64,000 bases of DNA from Streptosporangium saharense (GTDB taxonomy: Bacteria > Actinomycetota > Actinomycetes > Streptosporangiales > Streptosporangiaceae): positions 1,488,001-1,552,000 of the forward strand of contig NZ_JACHJP010000002.1 of assembly GCF_014203715.1 (NCBI RefSeq), in the 5' to 3' direction. The notes under the pieces are model-generated. The model was not told the DNA's origin. It did no database searches and was given only the letters and a program-made list of their open reading frames with translations. Positions within the stretch are counted from its first letter, which is position 1. Each line of letters opens with the position of its first letter. This document shows positions 14,132 to 62,551 of the stretch, in pieces. Made by a program: the position numbers and the translations under genes.

Positions 14132-14767
14132 ATGTCACCGAGAAAAGCGGCAGCCCTGCGTGACGGCGCCGACGGCCTGAGCCTGCGCGACCACCTCGTC
14201 GCCACCGCCGCGCGGCTCATCGCCGAGCGCGGCACCGCCGGACTCACCGTCCGCGACATCGCCCGCGAGGCGCGGGTCGCGGACGGCGTGCTGTACAACC
14301 ACTTCGAGGGCAAGGAGGAACTCCTCGCCCTCGCCCTGCACGCCCACGTCCGCTCCGTCGAGCGCGACCTCGGCCCGCTGCCCGCCGTCCCGGGCGAGAA
14401 CACCGTCGCCGACAACCTGCACGCCTGCCTCACCTACGGCCTCGCCCTGCACACGGCCTTCCTGCCCGCCTTCGCGGGCCTGATCTCCCAACCCGAGGTC
14501 CTCGCCCGCTTCCACGCGCTGCCCAACCCCCTGGGCAGCGGCAGAGGGCTGAAGACGCTTCTGGCCGACTACCTGCGCGCCGAACAGACCCTCGGCCGCC
14601 TCTCCCCCGTCGCCGACCCCGAGGCCGCCGCCGCCATCATCGTCGGCGCCTGCCACGAACTGGTCCTCCCCCGCCTACTCCAGGGCGCGCTCCTGACCGA
14701 ACCGCCCCCCGGCCACACCGAAACCCTGATCACCACCCTGATGAACGGCCTCGCCCCTTCCACCTGA
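14132..14767 (+). CDS. TetR-family transcriptional regulator
   Basis: 211 residues (the GTG at 14129 would add one). N-terminal HTH at about 20-65: AARLIAERGTAGLTVRDIA ... VADGVLYNHFEGKEEL is a textbook TetR domain. An alpha-helical ligand domain follows. It stands downstream of the broken methyltransferase and behind the tandem repeats at 14056-14121. By usual TetR logic it represses itself and the palindrome-controlled methyltransferase gene, which is now inactive. Confidence 0.94.
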   Translation: MSPRKAAALRDGADGLSLRDHLVATAARLIAERGTAGLTVRDIAREARVADGVLYNHFEGKEELLALALHAHVRSVERDLGPLPAVPGENTVADNLHACLTYGLALHTAFLPAFAGLISQPEVLARFHALPNPLGSGRGLKTLLADYLRAEQTLGRLSPVADPEAAAAIIVGACHELVLPRLLQGALLTEPPPGHTETLITTLMNGLAPST

Positions 14768-14788
14768 GACGCGTCCCGCATCCCGTAC

Positions 14789-15137
14789 TCAGACCGGCAT
14801 CCTCTTCGCCACAAGACGCGCCCGGTCGAGAAACTCCCGCTCCTCCTCGCCACCCGGAACAAGAACGCGCCCCGACCGTTCGAGCATCACCACCGAAACG
14901 GTGAGGGTTCCACTCATCAGCTCCCTGCGACGACACGAAATACTCCTGGAACATCCGCCTGTTCAGCGTTTCGAAGGCCACGATGTCAATCTCACACATG
15001 TCACCGGATATCTCGACCACGCCGGACGGCTGACCGAGAAGTTCGGATATCGAACGCAGGAGGGAAAGATAAGTCTTGCCCACTCGTAACGCCGGGCTCC
15101 ATACGGTTTCCTCCCCGACCTCGAAGACGTAACTCAT
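14789..15137 (-). pseudogene. Small protein of the immunity-like array, frameshifted
   Basis: The ATG at 15137 has GGAG five bases upstream and gives MSYVFEVGEETVWSPALRVGK and onward for ~70 residues to NRRMFQEYFVSS. After that the frame turns into Arg/Gly/Ser-rich nonsense. The neighbouring frame continues naturally (RRELMSGTLTVSVVMLERSG) to a TGA at 14789-14791, so one base appears lost or gained near 14925-14935. A restored protein would have ~115 residues. Not assignable to a family. It starts 18 bp after the stop of the gene at 15156-15425, in an operon-like arrangement. Confidence 0.65.
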
Positions 15138-15155
15138 CCCCACTCCAACCAGATG

Positions 15156-15425
15156 TCACGGTTCTTCGGCTTCTTTCCACGAGTACCGTTCTGCCTGTTC
15201 CTCCAGGTAGGACCTCCACCGGGCGAGCATGGTGACCTCTCCGCAGGACGAACCGCCCGTCAGAACGACATCGACGTCCTCGCCCAACCACAGGACGCCT
15301 TCACGGTCACCTCCACCCGCCCTCATCAGGAGGATCACGGCTCCCGTGGAGGGATGCACAAGGCGCGCCCCGAGTCCGCCAGCCTTTTCCGCGGGAAGAC
15401 GAAACCGCAGGATCTCCCCGCGCAC
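15156..15425 (-). CDS. Small chimeric protein with a DUF2247-like tail
   Basis: 89 residues. The GTG at 15425 is chosen because AGGAGGT lies five bases upstream. Residues ~1-60 (VRGEILRFRLPAEKAGGL onward) are unrelated to anything I recognise. The last ~28 residues (MLARWRSYLEEQAERY) are almost identical to the end of the DUF2247 protein at 17155-17655, at DNA level as well. This looks like a recombination product between array members. Function unknown; an immunity role is only contextual. Confidence 0.6.
   Translation of the reverse strand: MRGEILRFRLPAEKAGGLGARLVHPSTGAVILLMRAGGGDREGVLWLGEDVDVVLTGGSSCGEVTMLARWRSYLEEQAERYSWKEAEEP
15183..15242 (-). repeat. Duplicated 3' end of the DUF2247 gene, copy 1
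   Basis: About 60 bp nearly identical to 17167-17226 (four differences by eye), same orientation, encoding the DUF2247 tail. The copies are 1984 bp apart. Confidence 0.85.
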
Positions 15426-15512
15426 GGCGCACCTCCTACCAAGGGCACGACACCTGCTCTCCCCCGACGCCGCCACCATCGGCTCCTGCTCAGAACACGG
15501 CCCACCCCTCTA

Positions 15513-15962
15513 CTAAACACCTTTCATGCGATTCAGCATCCTCCTAAGAGAATCTATATCAACAGACTCCCATCCCTTGAGATCACACTCCTCGATCACC
15601 CGTAAGGCACATTCCTTCACTGATTCAAAAAAGACATCATAAGATATCTCGATCAATCGGCCGCTGTTTGCGCTTCTGGCCCGGAAGAGGTTTGCAATAC
15701 ATCTTTCACCATCGAAGTCCAGGATGATCTCCCAAGGGCCGTCCATGAAAGATAATTCGATACTTCCAGCCGCACCACCTCTGCTCTCGGAAGATAGAAC
15801 AGCCTCTGTCCACCAGCCCAGAACGACAACGGGGAAATCCATCCACTCCAACTCCGGAAACGGCTCCTCCGCTCCCTCCACCCAGATGGGACCAACGATC
15901 GATCCGGAAGCCAGCCTCTCCAGCGCCGAGACATCGACCATCACGCGGACTTCTTTTTTCAT
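15513..15962 (-). CDS. Unknown small acidic protein, immunity-like
   Basis: 149 residues from the ATG at 15962; a TTG six codons upstream is an alternative with a better ribosome site. Acidic, with conserved-looking blocks ERLASGSIVGPIWVEGAEE, FPVVVLGWWTEAVL and FMDGPWEIILDFDGERC. The C-terminal part is helical (SVKECALRVIEECDLKGW). Base composition is clearly lower in G+C than the genome average, which suggests transfer. No family assigned. Its size, acidity and position among DUF4279/DUF2247 genes fit an immunity protein. Confidence 0.7.
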   Translation of the reverse strand: MKKEVRVMVDVSALERLASGSIVGPIWVEGAEEPFPELEWMDFPVVVLGWWTEAVLSSESRGGAAGSIELSFMDGPWEIILDFDGERCIANLFRARSANSGRLIEISYDVFFESVKECALRVIEECDLKGWESVDIDSLRRMLNRMKGV

Positions 15963-16098
15963 AGCATCGTCACAGAACAAGCGGTTTCAATCACCTTAGT
16001 TTTGAGGTATCGGCATGACCGAAAGGATATTTCGTCACTCGCGCTACTCCTTCACCACCGCCGACGAGGGAAAGTGACGCGGCGACACCATGGAACTG

Positions 16099-16433
16099 TC
16101 AGTCCGCGTCCGAGTCGCCGTCCTCCAAAGCCTCATCCATCAATCCTTCGATCTCCCTTCAAGGTCATCATGAAACGCAACATGCGAGCGAAGATCACCT
16201 ATCCACTCCGGGCTGAGGACAACCATTTCCTTGGCAGCCGAAAGACTCAGATCATAAATTTTTGACACCATATATATGGCCTCCACGGTCGAACGGCCCG
16301 CCGTACGCAGGCGGGAAATAATTGCCCTCGGTTCCTCCCCATCACCCCCTGCACACACCAGGCGATCACATTCATCGTCAATCTCGCGCCTATCCATCAC
16401 CATCCCACAAATTTTATACAGTTCGGACGACAC
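16099..16433 (-). pseudogene. Small unknown protein of the array, probable frameshift
   Basis: The frame from GTG 16433 gives MSSELYKICGMVMDRREIDDE and onward and stops at 16140 after HDDLEGRSKD. If one G is added to the GGG run at 16155-16157, the protein instead ends naturally as DDLEGEIEGLMDEALEDGDSDAD with a stop at 16099-16101. As deposited it encodes 97 residues. A shift in a homopolymer suggests sequencing error or recent inactivation. The start overlaps the end of the DUF4279 gene by 20 bp. Helical, acidic, family unknown. Confidence 0.6.
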
Positions 16434-16899
16434 ATTCCATCGGACAGGATTCTGACATATTTAACACACCAACCCGGAGGACAATTACTTTGGCATCAAA
16501 ATAGACGTACTGGTCTACTTCCACCCCGGCATCAGCCGTCGCCAACCACTCGACGACTTCAGGAGCCAGCGATATTCCCTTCTCCATCGAGTCGTCAGCA
16601 TCGCGAAACTCCTGTACCACCACCAGGGATATCTCCCAACGTCCCTCCGCGTGCAATGTGTGAAACTTCCCGGCCATGGGAAGGCCCCACGAGACCAGCT
16701 CGTCGAAGGCGTCTTCCGGCCTTTCGAAGCCGCCCTCCGGCCCGATCTCAACACTCCACGAACTGAACCGATGAGGCTCTCCAGTCCTCGGCGACCTCTC
16801 CCCAGCCCGGAACATCCGATCAGCCGTTATCCCCGTAATGACTGACACCTCAGCAGGATCAGCACTCTCATTAACGAGCCGCAGGGATACTCGAAACAA
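16414..16899 (-). CDS. DUF4279 domain protein
   Basis: 161 residues from a TTG start with GTGGTGAT upstream. The fold pattern is typical of DUF4279: a beta strand RVSLRLVNE, then DPAEVSVITGITADRMFRAGE, WSVEIG and a C-terminal LAPEVVEWLATADAGVEVDQYVYFD. I recall DUF4279 proteins in contact-dependent toxin/immunity neighbourhoods and the gene may be an immunity gene, but no toxin is in this window. The TTG start lies one base after the stop of a short upstream frame (16901-17098), so its translation may be coupled. Confidence 0.8.
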   Translation of the reverse strand: MFRVSLRLVNESADPAEVSVITGITADRMFRAGERSPRTGEPHRFSSWSVEIGPEGGFERPEDAFDELVSWGLPMAGKFHTLHAEGRWEISLVVVQEFRDADDSMEKGISLAPEVVEWLATADAGVEVDQYVYFDAKVIVLRVGVLNMSESCPMECVVRTV

Positions 16900-16900
16900 A

Positions 16901-17098
16901 TTAAATCACCACTTGCATTTCCGATTTAATCTTCACCTTGCCATCTTTACTGGTAAGCCGGTGATAACCATCCGATCCGTACATCACCTCCCCATACGAG
17001 CGTGACGTTGTCCAAGCGTTCCAACCGGACCAACGAACCCCGAGCGCGACGGAAAGAAAAAGGAGTGGTCTCCTATCCCAGCGGGGAAAGGATGGCAC
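16901..17098 (-). CDS. Short frame upstream of DUF4279, doubtful
   Basis: Up to 65 residues. The 3' end (SYGEVMYGSDGYHRLTSKDG) has natural composition, but the N-terminal part does not, and an alternative frame (SLVRLERLDNVTLVWGGDV) also looks coding across 16965-17040. This may be a decayed gene rather than a functional one. Its stop sits 1 bp before the DUF4279 start. The remaining 17099-17154 shows nothing else. Confidence 0.3.
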   Translation of the reverse strand: MPSFPRWDRRPLLFLSVALGVRWSGWNAWTTSRSYGEVMYGSDGYHRLTSKDGKVKIKSEMQVVI

Positions 17099-17154
17099 TC
17101 GCTTCCGGTTCTCCGCTCAGGGGAATGATATTCCCCGGACCGTGCTTCTTCGCC

Positions 17155-17655
17155 TTATTTTCTCCCGTACCGCTCTGCCTGTTCGTCCAGGTAGGACCTC
17201 CACCGGGCGAGCATGGCGGCCTCTCCCACCTCGGCACCGGCGGGCGCGGGCATATACCGAACGAACCCCTCCAGGGCCTCCGGGTGGTCGAAGTCGGAAT
17301 ACAGCGCCTCAACGACTTCGAGAGGCTCGTTCACCTTCTCCCTGTTCTCGTGGAGCCAGGCGAGTGACAGGTAGAGCCAGACGGCCTTCCTGTCCGAGGT
17401 CCGGCAGTCGGCCTGACGGCTTCCCAGTATCTCGTCCACCCGGCAGAGCTCCTCCCGGAGAAGGAAAGCCAATTCCTGGAACAGGGGATCGTCAACACCC
17501 TCGCAAACGGCCATCAGGCAGAGGGAGACGACCCCTTCACGATTGAGCCATCCCATCCGGAACCCGCACGCCACATCTTCCAGATGGAGCCTGACACGCG
17601 ACCAGACGAAATCCGCGGGAATGGTGAAACCGATCTCCGGCATCCTGTCGATCAT
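17155..17655 (-). CDS. DUF2247 family protein
   Basis: 166 residues. ATG at 17655 with GGAGG four bases before it; the longer frame to 17811 is not coding. DUF2247 hallmarks are FTIPADFVWSRVRL, GFRMGWLNREGVVSL, VWLYLSLAWLHENRE, DFDHPEALEGFVRYMP and the terminal MLARWRSYLDEQAERY. The family is of unknown biochemical function; many copies sit in multi-gene immunity islands. First gene of the minus-strand array, which continues to 14789. Confidence 0.85.
   Translation of the reverse strand: MIDRMPEIGFTIPADFVWSRVRLHLEDVACGFRMGWLNREGVVSLCLMAVCEGVDDPLFQELAFLLREELCRVDEILGSRQADCRTSDRKAVWLYLSLAWLHENREKVNEPLEVVEALYSDFDHPEALEGFVRYMPAPAGAEVGEAAMLARWRSYLDEQAERYGRK
17167..17226 (-). repeat. Duplicated 3' end of the DUF2247 gene, copy 2
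   Basis: Parent copy of the ~60-bp segment also present at 15183-15242, here as the genuine C-terminal coding end of DUF2247. Confidence 0.85.
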
Positions 17656-52393: not shown

Positions 52394-53065
52394 TCAGCGC
52401 TGTCGCACGGGAGAGGTGAGGTAGGCGAGCCCGGCGCGGGCCAGCTCGTCGCGCAGGTGGGCCGACGACCTCGGCAGCCCCGGCCCCTCGCCGAGGCCGT
52501 ACGCGGTCAGGAAGCTGCCCAGGCACATGTGGAACACCGTCAGCAGGGCCGTCTCCGGGTCCTCGTGCCGGATCTCGTCCCCGTGGCGCAGCACCGCCTG
52601 CCTGAAGGCGGCGAACATGCGCTCGCGGGCGCGGAGCCTGCGGGCCCTGAGCGGCTCGTCGTCCGTCGAGTGCTCGGCGAGGGGGTGCACGGCCTGGGAG
52701 GCGACGTCCTCGGACAGGCAGGTGACGAAGGCGCGCACCACGTCCGCCAGGGAGGTGTCGGCCTCGCCGAGCCGTTCGGTGAGGTCGTCCTCAAGGCGGG
52801 TGAGGACCATGTCGCCCACGGCCCGCATCAGGCCCTGTTTGCCGTCGAAGCGGCCGTAGATCCCGCCGATGGAGATGCCGGAGGCCTCGGAGACTGCGGC
52901 CATCGTGAACCCGTCCACGCCGTCACGCGCCAGCACGGCCCTGGCGGCGTCGAGGATCTGCAGGGCGGAGCGGCGGCTGCGGCGCTGCTGCGGCTCCTCA
53001 AGAAGGCCCTCGTGCAGGCCGGGCAGCCAGCTGCCCCCCGCGTGGTCCTCGGGGCCTGCCGGCAT
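52394..53065 (-). CDS. TetR-family transcriptional regulator
   Basis: 223 residues from ATG 53065 with GGAGG eight bases upstream. HTH at ~35-80 (ILDAARAVLARDGVDGFTMA ... ISIGGIYGRFDGKQGLM). The C-terminal ligand domain is helical. It lies 43 bp downstream of the FMN reductase gene on the same strand and is the leading candidate for binding the twin motifs at 53784 and 53885. Confidence 0.94.
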   Translation of the reverse strand: MPAGPEDHAGGSWLPGLHEGLLEEPQQRRSRRSALQILDAARAVLARDGVDGFTMAAVSEASGISIGGIYGRFDGKQGLMRAVGDMVLTRLEDDLTERLGEADTSLADVVRAFVTCLSEDVASQAVHPLAEHSTDDEPLRARRLRARERMFAAFRQAVLRHGDEIRHEDPETALLTVFHMCLGSFLTAYGLGEGPGLPRSSAHLRDELARAGLAYLTSPVRQR

Positions 53066-53108
53066 GCCATTCCCTCCGCCCAGCGTGGACGCGCGAGAGT
53101 TTCCACCC

Positions 53109-53726
53109 TCAGCGCGTTCCCACCACGGTAGCAGGATCCGAAGATCCGTTCTGATGTGCGCGCACCCCGCGTGGCGGGGGGACGACGCCGCGTCCGCAGA
53201 CTTCGAGTCCCACGGTGCGCAGTTGGTCGAGGACCCGCTCGCCGGGATGCCATCCGCGTCCGTCACGGCCCTCGGCGACGTTGAGGGCGGCCCCGAGGGG
53301 GGTCGGCCAGCCACGCAGGGCGTGCACGATGGTGCGCAGGGCCTGCAGGGTCGTGACGGCGGCCTGCCAGCCGTACGCGGTGGTGACGCAGCCGACCGCG
53401 CGGCCCGTCAGGTAGGGGCGGGTGTCGTCCCTGAGGTCCTCGGCGTAGTCGAGGGCGTTCTTGACCAGGCCGGAGACGGAGCCGTGGTAGCCGGGCGAGC
53501 AGACGATCACGCCGTCGGCAGCGCGCAGCGCCTCGACCAGGCGCCGTCCCGAGCCGCCCGGGGGACGGTCCGGGTCGTACATCGGCAGGCCAGACAGGTA
53601 GTCGGCGCCGAACAGCTCCGTGCGGGCCCCGGCGGCGGCCGCGGCGTCGAGGGCGAGGCGCAGGGCGGTCTCACTGGTCGAGGAGGCGCGCGTCGTGCCC
53701 CCGAGTCCGACGACGAAGGGCTGCAT
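53109..53726 (-). CDS. NAD(P)H-dependent FMN reductase
   Basis: 205 residues, GAGGAG upstream. Flavodoxin-like fold with the phosphate-binding VVGLGGTTRASSTSETALR and CSPGYHGSVSGLVKNALDY, typical of SsuE/MsuE-type reductases. Supplies reduced FMN to flavin-dependent monooxygenases. Divergent from the DszC-like monooxygenase gene, which strongly suggests a two-component oxygenase system. Confidence 0.92.
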   Translation of the reverse strand: MQPFVVGLGGTTRASSTSETALRLALDAAAAAGARTELFGADYLSGLPMYDPDRPPGGSGRRLVEALRAADGVIVCSPGYHGSVSGLVKNALDYAEDLRDDTRPYLTGRAVGCVTTAYGWQAAVTTLQALRTIVHALRGWPTPLGAALNVAEGRDGRGWHPGERVLDQLRTVGLEVCGRGVVPPPRGVRAHQNGSSDPATVVGTR

Positions 53727-54094
53727 TCCACTGTCTCCTCGGTGGGGAGGGGTTCCTGAGCGGCGGCGCGTTCCAGCGGTACCAATCCGAATCAGTATTC
53801 TTTTTCGAGTATCAAGCGCGCTTTCCCTTCCGTCAAGACCGCTCAGAACGGGCCTCCGGGCGCCTCGGTCAAGCCTTGACTTAGAATCCGAATCCGGATT
53901 TTACTTAAATGCGACGCGTGGGTACGGCTCCCGCGTGGCAGGTCCGGCGGACGGTCGCCTCGACGTCCGGTCCGGGCCTCACCGGGCGGCGCGGCCCGGC
54001 CGGTTGACGGACGTCCCGGCGCGGCGGTCGGCGCGGATCGAAGGCCCGGATTCCAGCGACTCTTCGGGTGCACAACCGCAGGACAGGAGAGGTC
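53727..54094. promoter_or_regulatory. Divergent control region with two copies of a 16-bp motif
   Basis: AATCCGAATCAGTATT at 53784-53799 and AATCCGAATCCGGATT at 53885-53900 differ at two positions and lie 101 bp apart. The second falls between a TTGACT -35 (53876-53881) and the presumed -10 of the monooxygenase promoter. The first lies 15 bp downstream of TTGATA on the minus strand. Both placements suit repression by one regulator. Confidence 0.7.
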
Positions 54095-55309
54095 ATGACT
54101 TTTCAGGAAAACGGGGCATCTTCCGGCGAGGACGCCACGAGGCACCGGATCGCCGACCTCGCCCGCAGGGCGGCGGCCCTGCGCAGGGAGTTACCGGAGA
54201 GCGCCGCAGAAGCCGACACCGCCAACACCGACACCGCGTTCGGGATGCGGCGCCTCTGGGAGGAGGGCCTGTTCGCCTTCTGCCTGCCCCACAGGTTCGG
54301 CGGGATCAACGACGCCAGGCCCGAGGTCCACACCGAGGACTTCTTCAGGATCGTCCTGGACGTCATGGCCGGGGACTCCTCCGCCGGGATGAACTTCCTG
54401 GTCCAGTCGCTGGTGACCTTCGAGGTCTTCAAGGAAGACAACAGCCTGCCCGAGACCACGAAGGCGGAGCTGGCCCGCCTGATCCGCGACGAGGGGGTCA
54501 GGCTCTGCGCCTCGAACTCGGAGGCGGGCTCGCCGGGACCCGTGACCGCCAGGCGCGTGCCGGGCGGCATCGTCGTCACCGGCACCAAGGCGTTCAACAC
54601 CAACAGCGGCGGGGGTGGCTGGGCCTCCGTCGGCCTCACCCTCGAAGGCCGCAGGGGCCGCTACAACGCGCTCGTCCCCCTCGACCAGCCCGGCGTGGCC
54701 ATGAAGCACGACTGGGACAGCATGGGCCAGCGGGGCACCCACAGCCAGACCATCGTCTACGACGAGGTGTTCGTCCCCGACGGTCACCACTTCGACTCGG
54801 GGCCCGTCTCCCCGTCCTACCTGTCGTACGTCTTCCTGACGCACGCGGCGATCATGCTCGGTCCCGGGCTCGGCGCCTTCGACGCCGCCCTCGACTACGT
54901 GCGCAAGCTGGACCGGCCGAGCCTCCCCGAGTTCGACAGCGCGACCGAGGACGTTCTCGTACGGCGCCGCATCGGCGGCTGCGCGGTCGACCTGCGCGCC
55001 GCCCGCGCCTTCCTCCTGGACACCGCCCGCAGGATCGAGCGCAGCGCCCCCGACGAGGACACCACGGAGCTGTTCGTCGAGGCGTTCGGCGTCAAGGTCG
55101 CCTGCGTCAGGGCCGCGCTCTCCGTCACCCAGGAGATCTTCGACCTCACCGGCGCGCGCAGCACCTCGGGCAGGTACGGCTTCGACCGCTTCTGGCGCAA
55201 CGCCCGTACCTTCGCCACCCACGACCCGACCGACGCCAAGGAGGTCTGGATCGGCGACTGGTACCTCACCGGCAAGGAACCCCCGATGGCGGCGATGCTG
55301 CGCGTCTGA
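54095..55309 (+). CDS. Flavin-dependent monooxygenase of the acyl-CoA dehydrogenase fold (DszC/SfnC-like)
   Basis: 404 residues with AGGAG five bases upstream. Acyl-CoA dehydrogenase fold, but the C-terminal GRYGFDRFWRNARTFATHDP and KEVWIGDWYLTGKEPP follow the R-x-WRN-xRT-x3-HDP pattern of DszC-type monooxygenases rather than catalytic-Glu dehydrogenases. DSMGQRGTHSQTIVYDEVFV is the usual mid-domain. Predicted to oxygenate a sulfur- or nitrogen-containing substrate with FMNH2 from the adjacent reductase. Confidence 0.85.
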   Translation: MTFQENGASSGEDATRHRIADLARRAAALRRELPESAAEADTANTDTAFGMRRLWEEGLFAFCLPHRFGGINDARPEVHTEDFFRIVLDVMAGDSSAGMNFLVQSLVTFEVFKEDNSLPETTKAELARLIRDEGVRLCASNSEAGSPGPVTARRVPGGIVVTGTKAFNTNSGGGGWASVGLTLEGRRGRYNALVPLDQPGVAMKHDWDSMGQRGTHSQTIVYDEVFVPDGHHFDSGPVSPSYLSYVFLTHAAIMLGPGLGAFDAALDYVRKLDRPSLPEFDSATEDVLVRRRIGGCAVDLRAARAFLLDTARRIERSAPDEDTTELFVEAFGVKVACVRAALSVTQEIFDLTGARSTSGRYGFDRFWRNARTFATHDPTDAKEVWIGDWYLTGKEPPMAAMLRV

Positions 55310-55379
55310 GCCCGCGGGCCGTACCGCCGCGCTCCGTGAACTATGTTTGGCGGGAGCGAACAAGGCGGAGGAGGAGCCG

Positions 55380-56000
55380 GTGGTCGTGCCGGAGCACCAG
55401 GACGGCGCAAGGCCGGGGGTCCACGGCGACGTCGGCGCCAGGATGCGGCGCTTCCGCAAGGAACGCGGCCTGACGCTGCGCGGGCTCGCCGCCGCCTCGG
55501 GGCTCTCGATCGGATTCCTGTCCCAGGTCGAGCGGGGCATCTCCGCCATCGGCCTGACCGCGCTGAACGGCGTCGCGGCGGCCCTCGGCCGGAGTGTCGC
55601 GGACTTCTTCGGCGACGAGCCCGGTCAGGAGGCGCCCGCCGTACCCGCTGTGCCGCAGCCGGGTCACTTCACGCTGACCCGCGCCGAGGCGGGGGCGACC
55701 GAGTACATCTCGGGGCAGCAGACCTACCGGATGCTCTCCGCCCGTGGCCCCGGTCTCGTCCTCGAACCGCTGCTGGTGCGCATCGCCCCCGGCGGGCGGC
55801 GTGAGGACGCCTACGGCCACGCGGGCGAGGAGTTCGCCTTCGTGCTCGAAGGGGAGCTGATCTACGAGGTGGACGGCGTCGAGCACCGCCTGCGCCCCGG
55901 GGACAGCGTGCACCTGAGGTCCACGGTGCCGCACAGCATGTACAACGACACCGACCGGGTCACGACCGTGGTCTCGGTGGTCACGCCCCGGCTCTTCTAA
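55380..56000 (+). CDS. XRE-family regulator with cupin domain
   Basis: 206 residues. The GTG at 55380 is preferred because GGAGGAGGAG lies 5-12 bases upstream; a TTG at 55347 lengthens the frame. HTH at ~18-70 (ARMRRFRKERGLTLRGLAAA ... GFLSQVERGISAIGL). The cupin_2 sensor domain is at ~125-200 (GHAGEEFAFVLEGELIYEVDGVEH ... STVPHSMYN). Likely senses a small carboxylic or amino compound. Ends 4 bp from the convergent dioxygenase gene. Confidence 0.92.
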   Translation: MVVPEHQDGARPGVHGDVGARMRRFRKERGLTLRGLAAASGLSIGFLSQVERGISAIGLTALNGVAAALGRSVADFFGDEPGQEAPAVPAVPQPGHFTLTRAEAGATEYISGQQTYRMLSARGPGLVLEPLLVRIAPGGRREDAYGHAGEEFAFVLEGELIYEVDGVEHRLRPGDSVHLRSTVPHSMYNDTDRVTTVVSVVTPRLF

Positions 56001-56004
56001 GCCT

Positions 56005-56892
56005 CTACATCGCCGTCCTGGCCGACCACAGCTCGGGGAAGACCTCGCGGCGCAGGCTGCGCTCCAGCCAGGTCAGCCCGCTCGAACCGCCCGAACCGGG
56101 CTTGGCGCCCATGGACCTGCGCACCGCCATGAGGTGGCGGTAGCGCCAGTCGGAGAAGCGCTCGGACAGGTCGGTCAGGGCCTCGCCGAGGGTCCACAGC
56201 TCGTCGCCGGGTCCCTGGTCGGCGTAGATCGCGACCCAGGCCGCCTCGACCAGCGGGCTCGGGACATACTCGGCGGTGAGGTCCTGCCGTACCGGAATGT
56301 CGAAGCCCCGCCTGCCCAGCAGGGCGAGCGTGCTGTCGTAGAGGCTCGGGGCGCTCAGGGCGTCGAGCAGTTCCCGGTGGACCCTGGGGTCGCGCCGGTG
56401 CGGGCGGATCAGCGCCTCCGACTTGTTGCCCAGCAGGAACTCCAGGTGCCGGTACATCGACGACTGGAACCCCGAGGCCTCCCCCAGTTCGTCACGGAAG
56501 GAGTTGAACTGGGCGGGCGTCATCCAGCCGAGCGCCGTCCAGGCCGCGTTGAGCGCCTCGAAGTGGCGCACGCTCCTGCCGATCACCGTGGTCGCCCCGG
56601 TCACGTCGTCCTCGTCGAGCAGCCGCCTGGCGAGCGTCCACTCCGAGCGCAGCAGGCCGAAGTAGAGCTCCATGACCTGGGTGGTCACCAGGAACGCCAG
56701 CTCCTCGGGGGCGTCGGTGACCGTCCGCTGCAGGTCGTGCAGGACCTCGGTGCCGACGTACTCGTCGTAGGGGGTCCGGGCCGCGAACTCCAGCGTCGGC
56801 GCGCCCGCGTTGGCCGCCGCGCGGGCGGCGCGCCCGTGCCCGTCGACCACCCCGACCCGGCCCGCCGAGCCCCTGGTGCGCCTCGTCGTCAT
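56005..56892 (-). CDS. Tryptophan 2,3-dioxygenase family protein
   Basis: 295 residues from ATG 56892 (AAGGAGG upstream). Characteristic motifs: YDEYVGTEVLHDLQ, QVMELYFGLLRSEW and SGFQSSMYRHLEFLLGNK. The last of these and YRHLMAVRRSMGAKPGSGGS supply the haem-pocket and substrate residues. Opens the indole ring of L-tryptophan or a relative to an N-formyl product. No kynureninase gene follows; the nearby amidohydrolase could act as deformylase. Confidence 0.9.
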   Translation of the reverse strand: MTTRRTRGSAGRVGVVDGHGRAARAAANAGAPTLEFAARTPYDEYVGTEVLHDLQRTVTDAPEELAFLVTTQVMELYFGLLRSEWTLARRLLDEDDVTGATTVIGRSVRHFEALNAAWTALGWMTPAQFNSFRDELGEASGFQSSMYRHLEFLLGNKSEALIRPHRRDPRVHRELLDALSAPSLYDSTLALLGRRGFDIPVRQDLTAEYVPSPLVEAAWVAIYADQGPGDELWTLGEALTDLSERFSDWRYRHLMAVRRSMGAKPGSGGSSGLTWLERSLRREVFPELWSARTAM

Positions 56893-56904
56893 GTCGCCTC
56901 CTTC

Positions 56905-56949
56905 GTTCAGCTCTATGTTCACGCCTGCTGAACGTTCCTGAAATCAGGA
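56905..56949. promoter_or_regulatory. Inverted repeats upstream of the dioxygenase gene
   Basis: GTTCAG (56905-56910) pairs with CTGAAC (56928-56933), and TCCTGA-AA-TCAGGA (56936-56949) is a separate perfect dyad. Candidate operators for the XRE-cupin regulator. Confidence 0.45.
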
Positions 56950-57031
56950 CTGTGAGGTGATTGGCGGCTTTCGCCTTATGCGCCGAAGGTTATCCGCGGA
57001 TCGAGTTTCGGCGTGACGGATCGTGACCCCC

Positions 57032-58060
57032 TCATGCCCCATCGGCCGCGGCGCCCGGGGAGCGGTCGAGCAGCGGGAGTACGGCGGTGCCGAGCAGTTC
57101 GACGCCGCCGTCGTCGGTGAGGCCGTGCGGGGTGCCGAACTCCACGCGCCGCACCCCGGCGTCGATGAGCGCCTGCGCCTGCGCGGCGACGTGTTCTGGG
57201 TCGCCGGAGAAGGCGAACAGGTCGAGCAGGTCGCCGGGGATCAGCCGTCCCGCCTCCTCGTGCCGTCCCGCGTCCACCAGCTCCTTGACCCCGGCCAGCA
57301 GGTCGGCGGGGACGTGCGCGGTCGGGTCGAGGTCGGCGACGACCGCGAGATACATGGCGACCTCGGTGCGGGCCCTGGCCCTGGCTGCGGCGCCGTCCCG
57401 GTCCACGACGGTCACCGCGCCGAACACCAGCCCCACCTCCCCCGGGTCACGGCCCACCTCGGCGGCGCCACGGGCGACCCGCTCCCGGATCACCGGGACC
57501 ATCGCCGGGTTGGCGCTGCCGCCGACCTTCAGCTCGTCGGCGATCCGCCCGGCCAGGGCCGCCCCCTTCGGCCCCCACGCGCCAAGCAACAGCGGCGGCC
57601 GGGGCCGGTGCACGGCGTAGCGCAGTGCGGTTCCCGGGGCCAGGCGGAACATCTCCCCCTCGAACCCGTCCCGGTCGCCCGCGAGCAGCAGGTGGATCAC
57701 CTTCACCGCCTCCGCGAGCGCGGTCAGCGGCCTGGGCTGGGCGATGCCGACCGCGCCGAGCCAGGTGCCCCTGGCCAGCCCCAGGTAGGCCCTGCCGTGC
57801 GAGGCCAGGTCGAGCGCCGCCACCTGCCCCGCGATCTCGTACGGCGCCGCCGAGTAGGGGTTGAGACAGGCCGGGCCGAGCCGTACGCGACGGGTGGCGG
57901 CGGCCATCTCCAGCAGCGGGAAGATCGGGGGCTGGTACATCAGGTCGCCGAACACGCTGAGCACGTCGAAGCCGTGCTCCTCGGCGCGGCGGGCGAGCCT
58001 GGCGTAGTCGCCCGCCCTCTTGTCGCTCTGCAGGCCGAGGCCGATCTCGGCGACGGTCAT
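57032..58060 (-). CDS. LLM-class (F420/flavin-dependent) oxidoreductase
   Basis: 342 residues. Luciferase-like TIM barrel with IGLGLQSDKRAGDYARLARR, FDVLSVFGDLMYQPPIFPLL, YLGLARGTWLGAVG and a GGSANPAMVPVIRERV segment. F420-dependent enzymes of this group oxidise or reduce small organic substrates. GAGGAG four bases before the ATG. Fourth gene of the amidohydrolase operon. Confidence 0.9.
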   Translation of the reverse strand: MTVAEIGLGLQSDKRAGDYARLARRAEEHGFDVLSVFGDLMYQPPIFPLLEMAAATRRVRLGPACLNPYSAAPYEIAGQVAALDLASHGRAYLGLARGTWLGAVGIAQPRPLTALAEAVKVIHLLLAGDRDGFEGEMFRLAPGTALRYAVHRPRPPLLLGAWGPKGAALAGRIADELKVGGSANPAMVPVIRERVARGAAEVGRDPGEVGLVFGAVTVVDRDGAAARARARTEVAMYLAVVADLDPTAHVPADLLAGVKELVDAGRHEEAGRLIPGDLLDLFAFSGDPEHVAAQAQALIDAGVRRVEFGTPHGLTDDGGVELLGTAVLPLLDRSPGAAADGA

Positions 58061-58075
58061 CGGGGCTCCTCAAAC

Positions 58076-58405
58076 TCAGGTCAGGTCGGCGGAGTTCATC
58101 CGGCGGCGGCGGGTGCGCTCGACCCGCATCACCAGCCGCTCCTCGGGGTCGGGGCAGGCGAACAGGGAGTCCTGGGCCAGCCAGTCACCCGAGGCCAGGT
58201 CACGCTGCTTGGCCGCGAGGAAGGGCAGCACCGAGGCCAGCGCGTACACGCAGAAGTGCCTGCCGTCGGGCAGCCGCAGGTGCGCGCTGTTCTCCAGCGT
58301 GAAGCAGTCGCCGACCTCCATCCCGCAGACGGACCTGCCCTCGATGCGGTCGACCACGACCCTCAGGTCGTACAGCTCCATGTCGCCGTCTTCCACGGGT
58401 TCCAC
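58076..58405 (-). CDS. TIGR04076 family protein
   Basis: 109 residues from GTG 58405 with GGAGG seven bases upstream. Family signature: CGMEVGDCFTLEN, FCVYALASVLPFLAA and CPDPEERLVMRVER with three conserved Cys. A small protein of unknown function, often next to LLM or radical-SAM enzymes. Fits the operon by 12-15 bp spacing on both sides. Confidence 0.82.
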   Translation of the reverse strand: MEPVEDGDMELYDLRVVVDRIEGRSVCGMEVGDCFTLENSAHLRLPDGRHFCVYALASVLPFLAAKQRDLASGDWLAQDSLFACPDPEERLVMRVERTRRRRMNSADLT

Positions 58406-58417
58406 GGGGGCGCCTCC

Positions 58418-58810
58418 TCAGGGGCCGAGCAGCTCGGAGTGGTGGTGGACGATGAGCCAGCCGTCGCCGGTACGGCGCAGCACGTCGGTCACCCTGCTGT
58501 GCTCGGCGGGGGCGCCCGGGGGCTCGGCGACGAGCACGTAGCGGGCGACGCCGGTGTCCCCCCACACGTCGATCCGCCTGTCCCGCGCGCTCAGCCCGTC
58601 GAGGACGGGCCTGGCGCCGGAACTGTCGCGCTCCTCACGATAGGCGTCCAGTTCGGCGCGGGTGCGCAGCGGCCCGGGCAGGTGGGTCTCCCAGACCGTG
58701 ACCTCGGCGTGCAGGTGGGCGTCGAAGCGTGCCCGGTCCCCGCTGAGGAACGCGTCGTACATGTCGTCGATGCCCGCCGAGATCGCCTCGGCGTCGGTGG
58801 TCTCAGACAT
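58418..58810 (-). CDS. SnoaL/NTF2-like protein
   Basis: 130 residues. NTF2 fold: SAGIDDMYDAFLSGDRARFD, HAEVTVWETHLPGPLRTRAE and a C-terminal WLIVHHHSELLGP. Such proteins act as small cyclases, isomerases or steroid-type hydrolases. Overlaps the amidohydrolase stop by 8 bp. Confidence 0.87.
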   Translation of the reverse strand: MSETTDAEAISAGIDDMYDAFLSGDRARFDAHLHAEVTVWETHLPGPLRTRAELDAYREERDSSGARPVLDGLSARDRRIDVWGDTGVARYVLVAEPPGAPAEHSRVTDVLRRTGDGWLIVHHHSELLGP

Positions 58811-60041
58811 GGCTCACCTCTCCGGCCCGGTCGTCGCGGACGACCCGGCCTCCCTTCATCACCCAGCGGACCGCGCGGAAGGCCGACGCCGACTCCAGCG
58901 GGTCGGCGTCCATGGCGACGAGGTCGGCGTAGCGGCCCGCCTCGACGGTGCCGATGTCCTGGTCGGCGCCGAGCCAGCGGGCGGGGCCGAGCGTGCCCGC
59001 GTACAGCGCGCGGACCGGACCGAGACCGCCCTCCGCCATGTGTTCCAGCTCCCGAACCGTGGCGTTCGTCCCCTCGAACTCCCAGAACGGCGGCATGTCG
59101 CTGCCCAGCAGCACCTCCACGCCCGCCGCCAGGGCCATGGCGTAGCTCTCCAGGTGCCGGGGACCGGCCCCCAGGGAGCGGCACTGCATCCACTCGGGCA
59201 CGCCGAGCTCGTCGAAGAACTCCTTGCACCGGGTGACGATGAGCGTCGGCACCAGGGCGGTGCCGCGCGCGGCCATCGCCGCCGCGACCTCGGGGGTGAG
59301 CTGGTAGCCGTGCTCGACGCAGTCGAGGCCGAGTTCGACGGCCTCGGCGATCACCGGGGCGGGACCCGCGTGCGCGGTGACCTTGCGCCCCCAGGCGTGC
59401 GCGGTGGCCAGCACCGCGGCCATCTCGTCGGAGAACAGCTGCGGGGTTTCGATGCGCTCGTGCTCCCCGGCGATGCCCCCGGAGATCATCACCTTGATGA
59501 GGTCGGCGCCCGCCCTGAGCTGGGTGCGGACCCCGCGTCTGAACCCGTCGGCGCCGTCGCACTCCAGGGTGTCGGACCCCTCGTGGCCGTGGCCTCCGGT
59601 GCAGACCAGCGCCTGCCCGGCGGTGAAAACGCGCGGTCCCGTCGCGGTGCCCGCCTCGATGGCCCGGCGCAGGGCGAAGTCCGCGTGGTCCTTCTCCGCG
59701 ACGCACCGCACGGTGGTGACGCCGCAGCGCAGGGTGCGCCGGGCGCCGTCGGCCATGTGGAGGGCCAGTTCGTGGGGGTTGAGCCCCTTGACGCCCTCCC
59801 CGGCGCTGCCCGGCAGCGACAGCGAGAAGTGGGTGTGCATGTTGACCAGGCCCGGGGTGAGGTGGGCGCCGTCCAGGTCGATCGTCCTCGCCCCCTCCGC
59901 CTGGGGCAGGACCTTTTCGCGGGGGCCGACGAGCGCGACGCGCTCCCCCCTGACCAGCACGGCGGCGTCGGCGAGCGGCTCCACGCCGTCGGCGGCCCTG
60001 CCGTCGGTCACGGTGCAGTTGACGATGACGAGGTCGCCCAT
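58803..60041 (-). CDS. Metal-dependent amidohydrolase (imidazolonepropionase-like)
   Basis: 412 residues, AAGGA upstream. Metal ligands in NMHTHFSLSLPG (HxH ~69-71), the Lys in LIKVMISGGI, His residues in KVTAHAGP and DCVEHGYQL, and Asp in LGSDMPP. Predicted cyclic-amidase or deformylase type hydrolase. First gene of the minus-strand operon ending with the LLM enzyme. Confidence 0.92.
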   Translation of the reverse strand: MGDLVIVNCTVTDGRAADGVEPLADAAVLVRGERVALVGPREKVLPQAEGARTIDLDGAHLTPGLVNMHTHFSLSLPGSAGEGVKGLNPHELALHMADGARRTLRCGVTTVRCVAEKDHADFALRRAIEAGTATGPRVFTAGQALVCTGGHGHEGSDTLECDGADGFRRGVRTQLRAGADLIKVMISGGIAGEHERIETPQLFSDEMAAVLATAHAWGRKVTAHAGPAPVIAEAVELGLDCVEHGYQLTPEVAAAMAARGTALVPTLIVTRCKEFFDELGVPEWMQCRSLGAGPRHLESYAMALAAGVEVLLGSDMPPFWEFEGTNATVRELEHMAEGGLGPVRALYAGTLGPARWLGADQDIGTVEAGRYADLVAMDADPLESASAFRAVRWVMKGGRVVRDDRAGEVSHV

Positions 60042-60278
60042 CGGCCGTCCTTTCCCTGACCTTCCTGGTCGCGGGGGACGGTCACCTCCGCCGCGGTCCG
60101 TCCGTTCTATCAGGCAAAAGTTTCATGAACAAGGGATGGGTCGTCGTTCACGGGTAAAGCCGCTCCAGCCAGTGGGATGTTCACCGGGTTTCACACCGGC
60201 GTTACCGGGTCGATGCTTGACGCCGCGTGGAGCGGGCAGGCGGCATACACCGGTATTCATGAGCGGAGGGGGTTGACC

Positions 60279-61607
60279 ATGACCAAGCGGCAGCGGGTCG
60301 TCGTCGTGGGAGGGGGGTTCGCGGGCTTCACCGCGGCGCGCACCCTCTCCAAGCTGGCGCGGGGCGCGATCGAGATCGTCCTGATCAACCCGACCGACTA
60401 CTTCCTCTACCTCCCGCTGCTGCCCGAGGTGGCGGCCGGGATCCTCGACCCCCGCAAGGTCGCGATCCCGCTGGCGGGCATCTGCCCCGGGGTACGGCAC
60501 CTGCTCGCCTCTGTCGACTCGGTCGACGTGGCCAACCGCCGGGTGCGCTGCACCGACGCCGAGGGCCAGAGCCGTGAGCTTGGCTACGACCGCCTGGTGC
60601 TCTCGGTCGGCAGCGTCAACAAGCTGCTGCCCGTCCCCGGGGTGGCCGAGCACGCGCACGGCTTCCGCAGCATCGCCGAGGCCCTCTACCTGCGCGACCA
60701 CCTCATCCGGCAGATCGAGCTGGCCGACGCCTCCGACGACCCCGCCGAGCGCAGGGCGCGCTGCACGTTCGTCGTCGTCGGCGCCGGATACACCGGGACC
60801 GAGGTCGCGGCGCAGGGCCAGTTGCTGACCCTGGACACCCGGCGGCACCGGTCCGGCCTGCACGACCAGCAGATCCGCTGGATCCTGGCCGACCACGCGC
60901 CGCGCATCCTGCCCGAGCTGGACGAGCGGCTCTCCGACGTCGCCCACCGCACCCTGGCCGGTCGCGGGATGGAGATCCGCACCGGCACCAGCGTGGCCGA
61001 GGCGACCTCGGAGGGGGTCAGGCTCTCCGACGGGGAGTTCGTGCCGACCCGCTCACTGATCTGGTGTGTCGGCGTACGGCCCGACCCGCTGGTGGAGTCG
61101 CTCGGGCTGCCGACGGAGCGGGGCAGGCTGCTGGTCGACGAGTATCTCGGCGTGCCGGGCCATCCGGAGATCTTCGCCTGCGGGGACGCGGCGGCCGTAC
61201 CCGACCTGACCAGGCCCGGAGAGTACACCACGATGACCGCCCAGCACGCCGTACGGCAGGGCAGGCGGGCGGCGCTCAACCTGGCTGCCTCCTACGGCAG
61301 GGCGGAGCGGGAGCCGTACCGGCACCATGATCTGGGGTTCGTGGTCGATCTCGGCGGGGTGAAGGCGGCGGCCGACCCGCTGGGGGTGCCGCTTTCCGGG
61401 CTGCCCGCAAAGGTGGTAACCCGGGGTTACCACCTGCTGGCCATCCCGGGAGGCAGGGCGCGCATCGCGGGCAACTGGCTGCTGGACGCGCTGCTGCCGC
61501 GCCAGACGGTCCAGCTCGACCTGGTGCGCGGGCAGGAGGTGCCGCTCGACTCCTCCTCGCCGTATCCCGTCCTGCCCGGGGAGCGATCGAAGGAGCACGC
61601 GGGCTAG
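60279..61607 (+). CDS. Type II NADH dehydrogenase-like FAD oxidoreductase
   Basis: 442 residues from ATG 60279 with GGAGGGGG upstream. FAD-binding VVVGGGFAGFTAARTL (~8-22), NADH-binding VVVGAGYTGTEVAA (~160) and the CGDAAAVPD region near 300. The C-terminal amphipathic part (GNWLLDALLPRQTVQLD) may attach to the membrane. Transfers electrons from NADH to quinone without proton pumping. Confidence 0.92.
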   Translation: MTKRQRVVVVGGGFAGFTAARTLSKLARGAIEIVLINPTDYFLYLPLLPEVAAGILDPRKVAIPLAGICPGVRHLLASVDSVDVANRRVRCTDAEGQSRELGYDRLVLSVGSVNKLLPVPGVAEHAHGFRSIAEALYLRDHLIRQIELADASDDPAERRARCTFVVVGAGYTGTEVAAQGQLLTLDTRRHRSGLHDQQIRWILADHAPRILPELDERLSDVAHRTLAGRGMEIRTGTSVAEATSEGVRLSDGEFVPTRSLIWCVGVRPDPLVESLGLPTERGRLLVDEYLGVPGHPEIFACGDAAAVPDLTRPGEYTTMTAQHAVRQGRRAALNLAASYGRAEREPYRHHDLGFVVDLGGVKAAADPLGVPLSGLPAKVVTRGYHLLAIPGGRARIAGNWLLDALLPRQTVQLDLVRGQEVPLDSSSPYPVLPGERSKEHAG

Positions 61608-61770: not shown

Positions 61771-62088
61771 GTGAAAGCCAGTAAGTGGGCAGCTGCCCTT
61801 TCCACAACCGCGTTGCTCACCACCGGAGTGCTGATGGGCACGGTCTCCGGCGCGAACGCGGCACCCGACAGCTGCACCACCTCCGTCTCCGGGTCCACCG
61901 GCGCGGCGACGGGATCGAGCTACTGCGCGAGCGGCACCGGGGAGCACCAGGTCTCCGTGGTGTTCCGGCACCTCAACCCGTGGATCCCCGGTCTCCAGCA
62001 GATCTCGGGGCCGTGGAAGCCCGCCGGGCAGACCTCCTCCGTCACGGTCGTCGGCACGATCGTCTCCGTCAGCGTCCTCAAGCGCTGA
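61771..62088 (+). CDS. Small secreted protein, copy 1
   Basis: 105 residues from GTG 61771 (GGAGG upstream). Signal peptide (WAAALSTTALLTTGVLMG ... ANA). A mature ~75-residue beta-rich domain follows with two Cys in PDSCTTSVSGS and SSYCASGTGEHQV, then VSVLKR end. Paralogue of the next gene. Possibly a surface or antimicrobial/lectin-like protein; unclassified. Confidence 0.8.
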   Translation: MKASKWAAALSTTALLTTGVLMGTVSGANAAPDSCTTSVSGSTGAATGSSYCASGTGEHQVSVVFRHLNPWIPGLQQISGPWKPAGQTSSVTVVGTIVSVSVLKR

Positions 62089-62140
62089 CCCTCCCGTTCC
62101 ACCGCCTCCGGGGCGTCACGCCACCCCCGGCAGAGCGGAC

Positions 62141-62160
62141 GCCGGAGGACACGCTCCGGC
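62141..62160. terminator. Hairpin between the tandem secreted genes
   Basis: GCCGGAG-GACACG-CTCCGGC perfect 7-bp stem, about 50 bp past the first stop. Could terminate or attenuate, lowering expression of copy 2. Confidence 0.45.
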
Positions 62161-62245
62161 CGCCACGCGGACGGCTCCGCCGTTCCCCGCGAGCCGTACC
62201 CCACGTGGCATCCCCCCACCTCTCCAGCCACCAGAGGAAACACAC

Positions 62246-62551
62246 GTGAAGACACGTCTTCGGGCTCTCGCCCTGTCCGCGACGACCCTGCTCACCGGCG
62301 CGCTCCTGGTCGGCGGGGCCGCGGGTGCCAACGCCGCCCCCGACAACTGCACGGTCTCGACCTCGGGGTCCTACGCCTCCAGCTACTGCGCCTCGGGCAG
62401 CGGGCAGCATCAGATCGCCATCACCGTCCTGCACGCCAACCCCTCCGTCGGCTACGTCTACAACACCGGGCCGTGGGTCTCCGCGGGAGCCACCTCGACG
62501 GCCTACATCCCGCCGGGGACGATCGTCTCCATCCGCACCAACAAGCGCTGA
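62246..62551 (+). CDS. Small secreted protein, copy 2
   Basis: 101 residues from GTG 62246 (AGAGGAAA upstream). Same layout as copy 1: signal peptide ending ANA, PDNCTVSTSG, SSYCASGSGQHQI, and a closing TNKR. About 40% similar to copy 1 by eye. No own promoter is obvious, so it is probably read from the upstream promoter. Confidence 0.8.
   Translation: MKTRLRALALSATTLLTGALLVGGAAGANAAPDNCTVSTSGSYASSYCASGSGQHQIAITVLHANPSVGYVYNTGPWVSAGATSTAYIPPGTIVSIRTNKR

Follow-up and report, generated by a model that had tools for sequence, protein, structure and literature searches.

When genes for several oxidative enzymes are found side by side in a bacterial genome, do they form one pathway? The question is raised by a locus of Streptosporangium saharense in which genes for an FMN reductase, a DszC-like flavin monooxygenase, a regulator with helix-turn-helix (HTH) and cupin domains and a protein of the tryptophan 2,3-dioxygenase (TDO) family are located beside four genes coding for an amidohydrolase, a SnoaL-like protein, a TIGR04076 family protein and a luciferase-like (LLM) protein. 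The locus belongs to a stretch of 64,000 nt (the window, to the whole of which all coordinates refer). A first-pass annotation had read it as one oxidative route for an indole-like or N/S-heterocyclic compound. Coordinates and family searches agree with the eight genes and families that it named, and the observation is confirmed; the interpretation is partly supported. On balance, the best overall explanation is that the locus is a reduced version of a catabolic supercluster conserved in actinobacteria, together with an unrelated flavin-oxygenase pair. Gene adjacency alone is misleading in this case, as the FMN reductase and DszC, the pair that most catches the eye, do not move together with the other genes.

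A conserved module linked to tryptophan catabolism

The amidohydrolase, SnoaL-like, TIGR04076 and LLM genes are a conserved actinobacterial module, inherited together and linked to tryptophan/kynurenine catabolic genes, and of this we are highly confident. We have compared 16 genomes of the genus, 250 of the family and 72 named loci obtained by scanning bacterial genomes (L191, at 33% identity, was excluded; L165 gave no gene calls), using a simple in-house gene caller for the related loci. Amidohydrolase orthologs (63-100% identity) were found in 33/250 family genomes. A TDO gene (E<=1e-60) was located at 25 kb or less from the amidohydrolase, on the same contig, in 26 of the 34 ortholog rows from these 33 genomes and in 0/19 rows of paralogs (37-46% identity) from the same 250 genomes. 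Genomes without a TDO row contributed 10/19 paralog and 4/34 ortholog rows; restricted to genomes with one, linkage was 26/30 for orthologs vs 0/9 for paralogs, and all these figures, the Fisher value included, are descriptive only, related genomes not being independent samples. The eight unlinked ortholog rows were those of G002, G012, G013, G073, G118, G188, G050 and one of the two of G042. No TDO row was obtained for G073, G118, G188 and G050, and the clusters of G002, G012 and G013 carry genes for kynureninase (KynU) and a kynurenine 3-monooxygenase (KMO)-type protein. Overall, TDO was present in 29/33 ortholog-bearing genomes vs 107/217 of the others. The TDO gene was 11-24 kb away from the amidohydrolase in ten Herbidospora, Acrocarpospora and Microbispora genomes, and in 9/9 stretches mapped in these genera TDO and an Lrp-type regulator adjoin LLM and TIGR04076.

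Among the 72 named loci the amidohydrolase appears in 70 (in L189 it is split in two open reading frames, ORFs, and was left uncounted), TIGR04076 in 56, oppB in 55, LLM in 54, SnoaL in 47, the HTH-cupin regulator in 39, HyuB in 36, HyuA and an alpha/beta hydrolase in 35 each, TDO in 24 (22 with Thr/Ser and two with His at the distal heme position), and KynU and KMO in 18 each. A kynurenine gene was found within the flank of 27/72, and all 27 also had TIGR04076 and/or LLM. The operon is a genuine cluster of catabolic appearance, tied to TDO across actinobacteria; the cupin-type regulator that had been noticed beside TDO recurs with it. The fuller versions add an oligopeptide (Opp) transporter, hydantoinase A/B (HyuA/HyuB) or a DUF885 protein (with Amidohydro_3 as another alternative), an alpha/beta hydrolase, KynU and KMO. 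Six Paractinoplanes loci (L154, L156, L158, L160-L162) are arranged as substrate-binding protein (SBP)-oppB-oppC-oppDF-HyuA-HyuB-HyuB-amidohydrolase-SnoaL-zinc alcohol dehydrogenase (Zn-ADH)-TIGR04076-LLM-alpha/beta hydrolase, followed by HTH-cupin and Lrp on the other strand and then by TDO-KynU-KMO-aldehyde dehydrogenase; in L156 the SBP gene is outside the stretch and oppDF was unclustered. Actinoplanes sp. RD1 (L171) has the same type of order without the Zn-ADH, and in Paractinoplanes tereljensis (L157) the layout is different and the flank is free of kynurenine genes. Genes for 3-hydroxyanthranilate (3-HAA) dioxygenase and for ACMSD-like, RidA-type and FAA-type proteins are added, differently ordered, in Blastococcus (L176) and Nocardioides (L186), and two Nocardioides loci carry a TDO with the distal His next to KynU and KMO. 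Across Paractinoplanes, Blastococcus, Nocardioides and a metagenome-assembled genome of Dactylosporangium the gene orders differ and the partners are the same.

Within the genus, the TDO of G015 is flanked by homologues of the genes found at 51623 and 62660 in the window, with the module absent there, which indicates that the module was gained or lost around TDO. We have found no description of the amidohydrolase-SnoaL-TIGR04076-LLM combination in open-licence PMC papers, in line with the earlier remark that no described pathway could be recognised, and the four-gene module is apparently undescribed to date. The name TIGR04076 itself was listed there for one paper, with a single occurrence. 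To our knowledge it is not a part of the known kynurenine pathway.

Two other settings of the module were seen. In Rhodococcus (L181:3859-8314) it adjoins a benzoate-CoA-ligase-like gene and a gene whose protein exceeds the cut-off for salicylyl-CoA 5-hydroxylase/oxidoreductase, and the product of the module there may be an aromatic acid. In Agromyces (L183:13288-17183) the neighbours resemble DapA, glycine/sarcosine oxidase and SoxA, none of them reaching an equivalog cut-off, and perhaps serve imino-acid catabolism.

The TDO and the kynurenine genes of the same genome

The TDO family protein had been proposed as a special ring opener for an indole-type compound. Very likely it is an ordinary tryptophan 2,3-dioxygenase, the first enzyme of bacterial tryptophan breakdown, because its relatives sit in kynurenine operons and kynurenine genes are found in the same genome; on these grounds we have rejected a new indole-type activity. 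Ordinary kynurenine-pathway genes elsewhere in the genome are also what the first-pass annotation had itself listed as refuting its proposal. The genome has two kynureninase matches over cut-off. One operon, on contig C1, codes for KynU (74% identity to the cluster representative), KMO (80%, and matching solved kynurenine 3-monooxygenases at E 1e-103) and an alpha/beta hydrolase. Another, on C13, contains a 3-HAA 3,4-dioxygenase over cut-off together with an aldehyde dehydrogenase, two FAA-type proteins, an acetaldehyde dehydrogenase, a DmpG-type aldolase, a RidA-type protein and an ACMSD-like amidohydrolase. Given these two operons, the genome seems to code for a route from tryptophan to central metabolism that is spread over at least three loci. 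In this it differs from the known kynurenine/3-hydroxyanthranilate/aminomuconate pathway, with which it shares the TDO of the window and, elsewhere in the genome, the set from KynU to the acetaldehyde dehydrogenase. We consider it highly likely, judging from sequence and context, that TDO makes N-formylkynurenine from tryptophan and that the downstream proteins are the ones encoded elsewhere. The N-formyl product and its hydrolysis, suggested at first as part of a novel route, would then stand as the work of a plain TDO plus a formamidase; a TDO/amidohydrolase/kynureninase chain has already been proposed for the biosynthesis of mycemycin (PMC5867642). A KMO of the close type (at least 65% identity) was present in 5/5 module-positive genus genomes and in none of the three that were searched among the 11 module-negative ones. 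In S. carneum a KMO gene is located between TDO and HTH-cupin, and the window lacks it.

The protein scores 200.3 bits against PF03301 (gathering score 34.9). It was filed under this family, and we infer its TDO function from context and not from the NCBIfam equivalog model TIGR03036. Aligned with solved TDO chains (xcTDO numbering), it keeps His240, which we take to be the proximal heme ligand, and Tyr24, Tyr27, Phe51, Arg117 and Ser124, presumably on the substrate side; Tyr113 is replaced by Phe and Thr254 by Ser. The position of His55, assumed here to be the distal residue, is occupied by Thr. We dropped this loss as a hint of unusual chemistry, since Ser or Thr is found there in 31/31 cluster rows of this TDO type (the window included and some genomes counted twice), among them rows inside kynurenine operons, and is a mark of the lineage.

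TDO matches were found in 16/16 genus genomes (best identity at least 56%) and, at E<=1e-60, in 136/250 family genomes. Near the genus TDOs there is an Lrp-type regulator in 13/15 and an alpha/beta hydrolase in 8/15 of the other loci mapped. In the TDO tree the window groups with S. carneum and G015 (support 84/95, not starred), and after these two the nearest by path are the Sphaerisporangium cluster TDOs; twelve other Streptosporangium TDOs make up a separate supported clade, with that of G011 in a different part.

Some observations concern other TDO genes. The same genome has a second one with the distal His (L048:6739-7566, C2 at about 765,750; 33% identity to that of the window). By eye, its neighbours look like aminotransferase, amidase and acetyltransferase genes, and it may belong to a locus for a secondary metabolite or to a separate tryptophan locus. 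S. carneum (G006) has another on C16 (L047:6583-7386; 46% to that of the window), and a KMO-like gene (44%) is located within the same stretch of 14 kb. Four Herbidospora TDO matches seemed to contain an in-frame TGA, which was not treated as a finding: the alignments start at residue 32 in three of them and at residue 21 in one, the TGA is in the poorly conserved stretch before, and no stop occurs in the aligned part.

The FMN reductase and DszC-like pair

Among the 15 other genus loci mapped, the FMN reductase and DszC genes were beside TDO only in S. carneum, which keeps the gene order of the window at 79-96% identity. DszC was found in 2/16 genus genomes (E<=1e-40) and in 3/250 family genomes (E<=1e-70), the third copy being elsewhere in its genome and 48% identical. 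Neither gene was found in 34 related loci mapped (S. carneum, which has both, is not one of them). From this rarity we conclude that the pair should be set apart from the module, and that the two genes are probably later and unrelated neighbours of it. Conserved clustering thus extends to the amidohydrolase, SnoaL, TIGR04076, LLM, TDO and HTH-cupin, and not to the FMN reductase and DszC.

The claim that the pair forms a two-component oxygenase is plausible from adjacency, as in the DszC/SfnB/MsuC systems, where an oxygenase goes with an FMN reductase, and DszC chains are the top solved matches of the oxygenase. Unlike in those systems, the two genes are divergent and neither protein reaches any matching NCBIfam cut-off. 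The DszC-like protein is far below DszC NF043015 (121.2 vs 850) and SfnB TIGR04022 (160.7 vs 430.9), and the FMN reductase is below the MsuE and SsuE cut-offs (22.7 vs 212.5 and 21.4 vs 164.05), PF03358 itself being met.

Proteins of the four-gene module

The amidohydrolase has an Amidohydro_1 domain with the metal-site residues (HxH, Lys, His, His, Asp) in place, at positions that align with chains of the Cc2672 carboxypeptidase, an Xaa-Pro dipeptidase and LlADH. Among its relatives of solved structure are an arginine carboxypeptidase, an Xaa-Pro dipeptidase, a prolidase, ochratoxinase and further amide hydrolases. Relatives in COG1228 are listed as amino-acid carboxypeptidases/dipeptidases in Table 1 of PMC11342369 (2024), and a preprint gives background on the metal site (PMC13081902). 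The likeness to the COG1228 enzymes (Cc2672, Xaa-Pro dipeptidase, ochratoxinase) covers most of the length; the window protein differs in being below the Xaa-Pro dipeptidase cut-off NF051886 (236.5 vs 500), and amidohydrolases of the module differ in being in operon, or in some loci fused, with TIGR04076 and SnoaL.

The LLM protein (PF00296, 148.5 vs a gathering score of 27.9) has as its nearest solved chains the methylene-H4MPT reductases (Mer; E 1e-36), three of them titled F420-dependent. It stays below the Mer equivalog cut-offs (141.4 vs 348.7 for the F420-dependent Mer TIGR03555), and a cofG-type F420 gene is present in the genome. The alignment of TIGR04076 (33 rows) has 25 invariant columns, and its predicted model (pLDDT 88.9) gave no Foldseek match at E<=0.001. 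In a second look at the fold, chains labelled as an Rv0376c homologue scored best (Z 7.0 and 6.3), followed by one titled xanthine dehydrogenase (Z 6.2); these matches were too weak and were left unused.

Fusions in a single open frame were found between the amidohydrolase and TIGR04076 (L119), the amidohydrolase and SnoaL (L125 and L134) and DUF885 and SnoaL (L093, 5689-7707). They suggest that the amidohydrolase, TIGR04076, SnoaL and DUF885 proteins work together, and the last one suggests that SnoaL partners with different amide hydrolases.

A possible function and its alternatives

What could the module do? A possible mechanism, which we put forward tentatively from the protein families, is the release of an amide-linked amino acid. 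In the fuller versions the substrate would enter through the Opp transporter, with HyuA/HyuB or the DUF885 protein opening it first. The carboxypeptidase-type amidohydrolase would then cleave the amide bond before the C-terminal aromatic amino acid of an amide-linked or peptide-like compound, and the tryptophan or kynurenine released would enter the kynurenine pathway, with LLM, TIGR04076 and SnoaL processing the remainder of the molecule or an unstable intermediate. Tryptophan would be converted by TDO to N-formylkynurenine; the later steps would be carried out by the alpha/beta hydrolase (a possible formamidase), kynureninase, KMO and 3-HAA dioxygenase, and then by the ACMSD-like, aldehyde dehydrogenase, RidA-type, aldolase and acetaldehyde dehydrogenase proteins. 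We regard the amidohydrolase as amino-acid-releasing because its solved relatives and the activities tabulated in PMC11342369 are those of carboxypeptidases/dipeptidases. An external amide-containing substrate is suggested by the Opp-type importers and the HyuA/HyuB, DUF885 or Amidohydro_3 proteins, and a tryptophan or kynurenine product would explain the adjoining kynurenine-pathway genes. The HyuA/HyuB of the fuller clusters (not of the window) resemble CapA/CapB of caprolactamase, and HyuB the N-methylhydantoinase; they differ in scoring 519.6 and 214.5 vs a cut-off of 1000 and in that HyuB is often in two copies.

It is somewhat doubtful that the amidohydrolase, TIGR04076, SnoaL and Mer-like LLM proteins are one enzyme system dismantling a common environmental tryptophan- or kynurenine-containing amide. 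In that case the substrate would be an N-acyl, peptidyl or cyclic conjugate, the chemistry would be new and the fusions would suggest a complex. Cyclic dipeptides are one possibility; a narrow diketopiperazine hydrolysis by two tested strains is described in PMC3852281, in passages that make no link to the module genes. If amide release is correct, an anonymous operon becomes a testable input branch of tryptophan/kynurenine catabolism spanning Streptosporangiaceae, Micromonosporaceae, Geodermatophilaceae and Nocardioides; the uncharacterised TIGR04076 family obtains a functional setting, and the amidohydrolase, LLM, SnoaL and HyuA/B are a concrete set for tracing the natural substrate. Were the single enzyme system correct, TIGR04076 would gain a function, and an input into tryptophan catabolism across several actinobacterial families would have gone unrecognised.

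Several results weigh against amide release, or against the link to tryptophan on which it depends, besides the relatedness of the genomes sampled and the missing distal His. The TDO falls below the TIGR03036 cut-off (312.2 vs 390.7 bits). No kynurenine gene was in the flank of 45/72 loci; some of these flanks are cut by the end of a contig, and among the 45 are loci of Micromonospora and Dactylosporangium that extend about 10 kb to each side. In 14/15 of the other Streptosporangium loci mapped TDO is found without an adjoining module. The prediction that 3-HAA dioxygenase would be restricted to module-positive Streptosporangium failed, 12/16 genomes being over cut-off and seven of these having no module. 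HyuB was not detected at E<=1e-60 in the genomes of the window or of S. carneum, nor was an Opp-type importer in the stretch mapped beside their modules, so that uptake is unexplained in the window. Other solved relatives of the amidohydrolase are titled imidazolonepropionase or phenylurea hydrolase.

The deformylating chain proposed for mycemycin counts on the same side, and leads to an unlikely alternative in which the amidohydrolase is the N-formylkynurenine deformylase between TDO and the rest of the kynurenine pathway; this would be the hydrolysis of an N-formyl product suggested at first, acting on an ordinary substrate. In mycemycin biosynthesis the amidohydrolase MymD/MyeD is proposed for this step, which there comes after TDO and before kynureninase, and mycemycins A and B are lost when myeD is deleted (PMC5867642); besides, no alpha/beta-hydrolase formamidase is encoded in the window cluster itself. 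The order of the chemistry (MymC/MymD/MymQ) is alike, but the setting is antibiotic biosynthesis with halogenases and carrier proteins, and MymD, of 513 aa, is likened by reported role only. The alpha/beta hydrolase is a better candidate for the formamidase because it accompanies the module at nearly half of the named loci and is also found (50-63% identity) near TDO in the eight Streptosporangium loci mentioned above, 8/8 of them without the module; the window's genome has one adjoining KynU-KMO, and several solved relatives of the amidohydrolase are of the carboxypeptidase type. We also find it improbable that the module is a damage-control or side branch of the kynurenine/3-hydroxyanthranilate pathway, clearing or salvaging reactive or dead-end intermediates. 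The constant presence of LLM and/or TIGR04076 at kynurenine-linked named loci, their place next to Lrp-TDO in all the Herbidospora, Acrocarpospora and Microbispora stretches and the RidA-type proteins of several cluster versions would fit such a role, but the frequency of oppB and the HyuA/HyuB or DUF885 proteins point to an external amide, and several genus genomes have TDO and 3-HAA dioxygenase without the module.

That the module builds a kynurenine- or anthranilate-derived secondary metabolite instead of degrading something is very unlikely. F420-type LLM enzymes do occur in secondary-metabolite pathways. TDO/KynU sets serve antibiotics as well, as PMC5867642 illustrates, but no NRPS (nonribosomal peptide synthetase), PKS (polyketide synthase) or carrier-protein domain was found among 30 neighbour proteins scanned, and importers and aldehyde-dehydrogenase/meta-cleavage-type genes accompany the module in several genera. 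The least credible alternative is the one proposed at the outset, a single oxidative pathway for an indole-like compound or N/S-heterocycle joining the FMN reductase, DszC, a TDO-family opener and the operon. The genes are adjacent and their order is kept in S. carneum, with the KMO gene in between; the rarity of DszC in genus and family, the absence of both flavin genes from the 34 related loci and the ordinary kynurenine genes elsewhere in the genome led us to reject it.

Gene layout and other features of the window

The features of the locus are collected in the table. The four-gene operon is tight: amidohydrolase and SnoaL overlap by 8 bp, and the gaps are of 12 bp between SnoaL and TIGR04076 and of 15 bp between TIGR04076 and LLM. 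TDO follows 139 bp downstream on the same strand, and is convergent with HTH-cupin, 4 bp separating their ends. DszC and HTH-cupin are co-directional, with the FMN reductase and TetR genes on the opposite strand.

Table. Genes of the S. saharense locus, with positions in the window.
Feature	Position	Strand	Evidence and remarks
TetR-family regulator, context only	52394..53119	-	PF00440; beside FMN reductase
NADPH-dependent FMN reductase, lineage-specific neighbour	53109..53726	-	PF03358, 90.4 bits
DszC/SfnB-like flavin monooxygenase (acyl-CoA-dehydrogenase-like), lineage-specific neighbour outside the conserved module	54095..55309	+	
XRE-HTH + cupin regulator, recurs with the module	55347..56000	+	PF01381 and PF07883; start codon uncertain
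TDO family protein, likely kynurenine-pathway TDO	56005..56892	-	PF03301; alternative start GTG 56922
LLM (luciferase-like), Mer-like, possibly F420-dependent oxidoreductase	57032..58060	-	PF00296
TIGR04076 family protein	58076..58405	-	TIGR04076, 71.9 bits vs cut-off 33
SnoaL-like/DUF4440 protein	58418..58810	-	PF13474 and PF14534
Amidohydrolase resembling COG1228 carboxypeptidases/dipeptidases	58803..60041	-	PF01979, 138.5 bits

A scan of the locus for promoters and terminators gave nothing decisive. The only promoter-like site in 53000-60300 is at 53836-53808 on the minus strand, upstream of the FMN reductase (mean in shuffles 0.1). Outside the locus, about 2.4 kb at 14767-17155 have a lower G+C content (0.59-0.64 in 2-kb bins vs mostly about 0.70 elsewhere), with several small ORFs and no gene from the caller; Rfam gave no match over 12-19 kb of the window, which covers this region. 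DinB, NhaA and flavohaemoglobin were named by eye in the gene maps, without a family search. Between a Pyr_redox_2 gene and the flavohaemoglobin-like gene so named, two adjacent and related small ORFs (86 and 101 aa) are found at 61828-62551, with N-termini that look secretion-like by eye.

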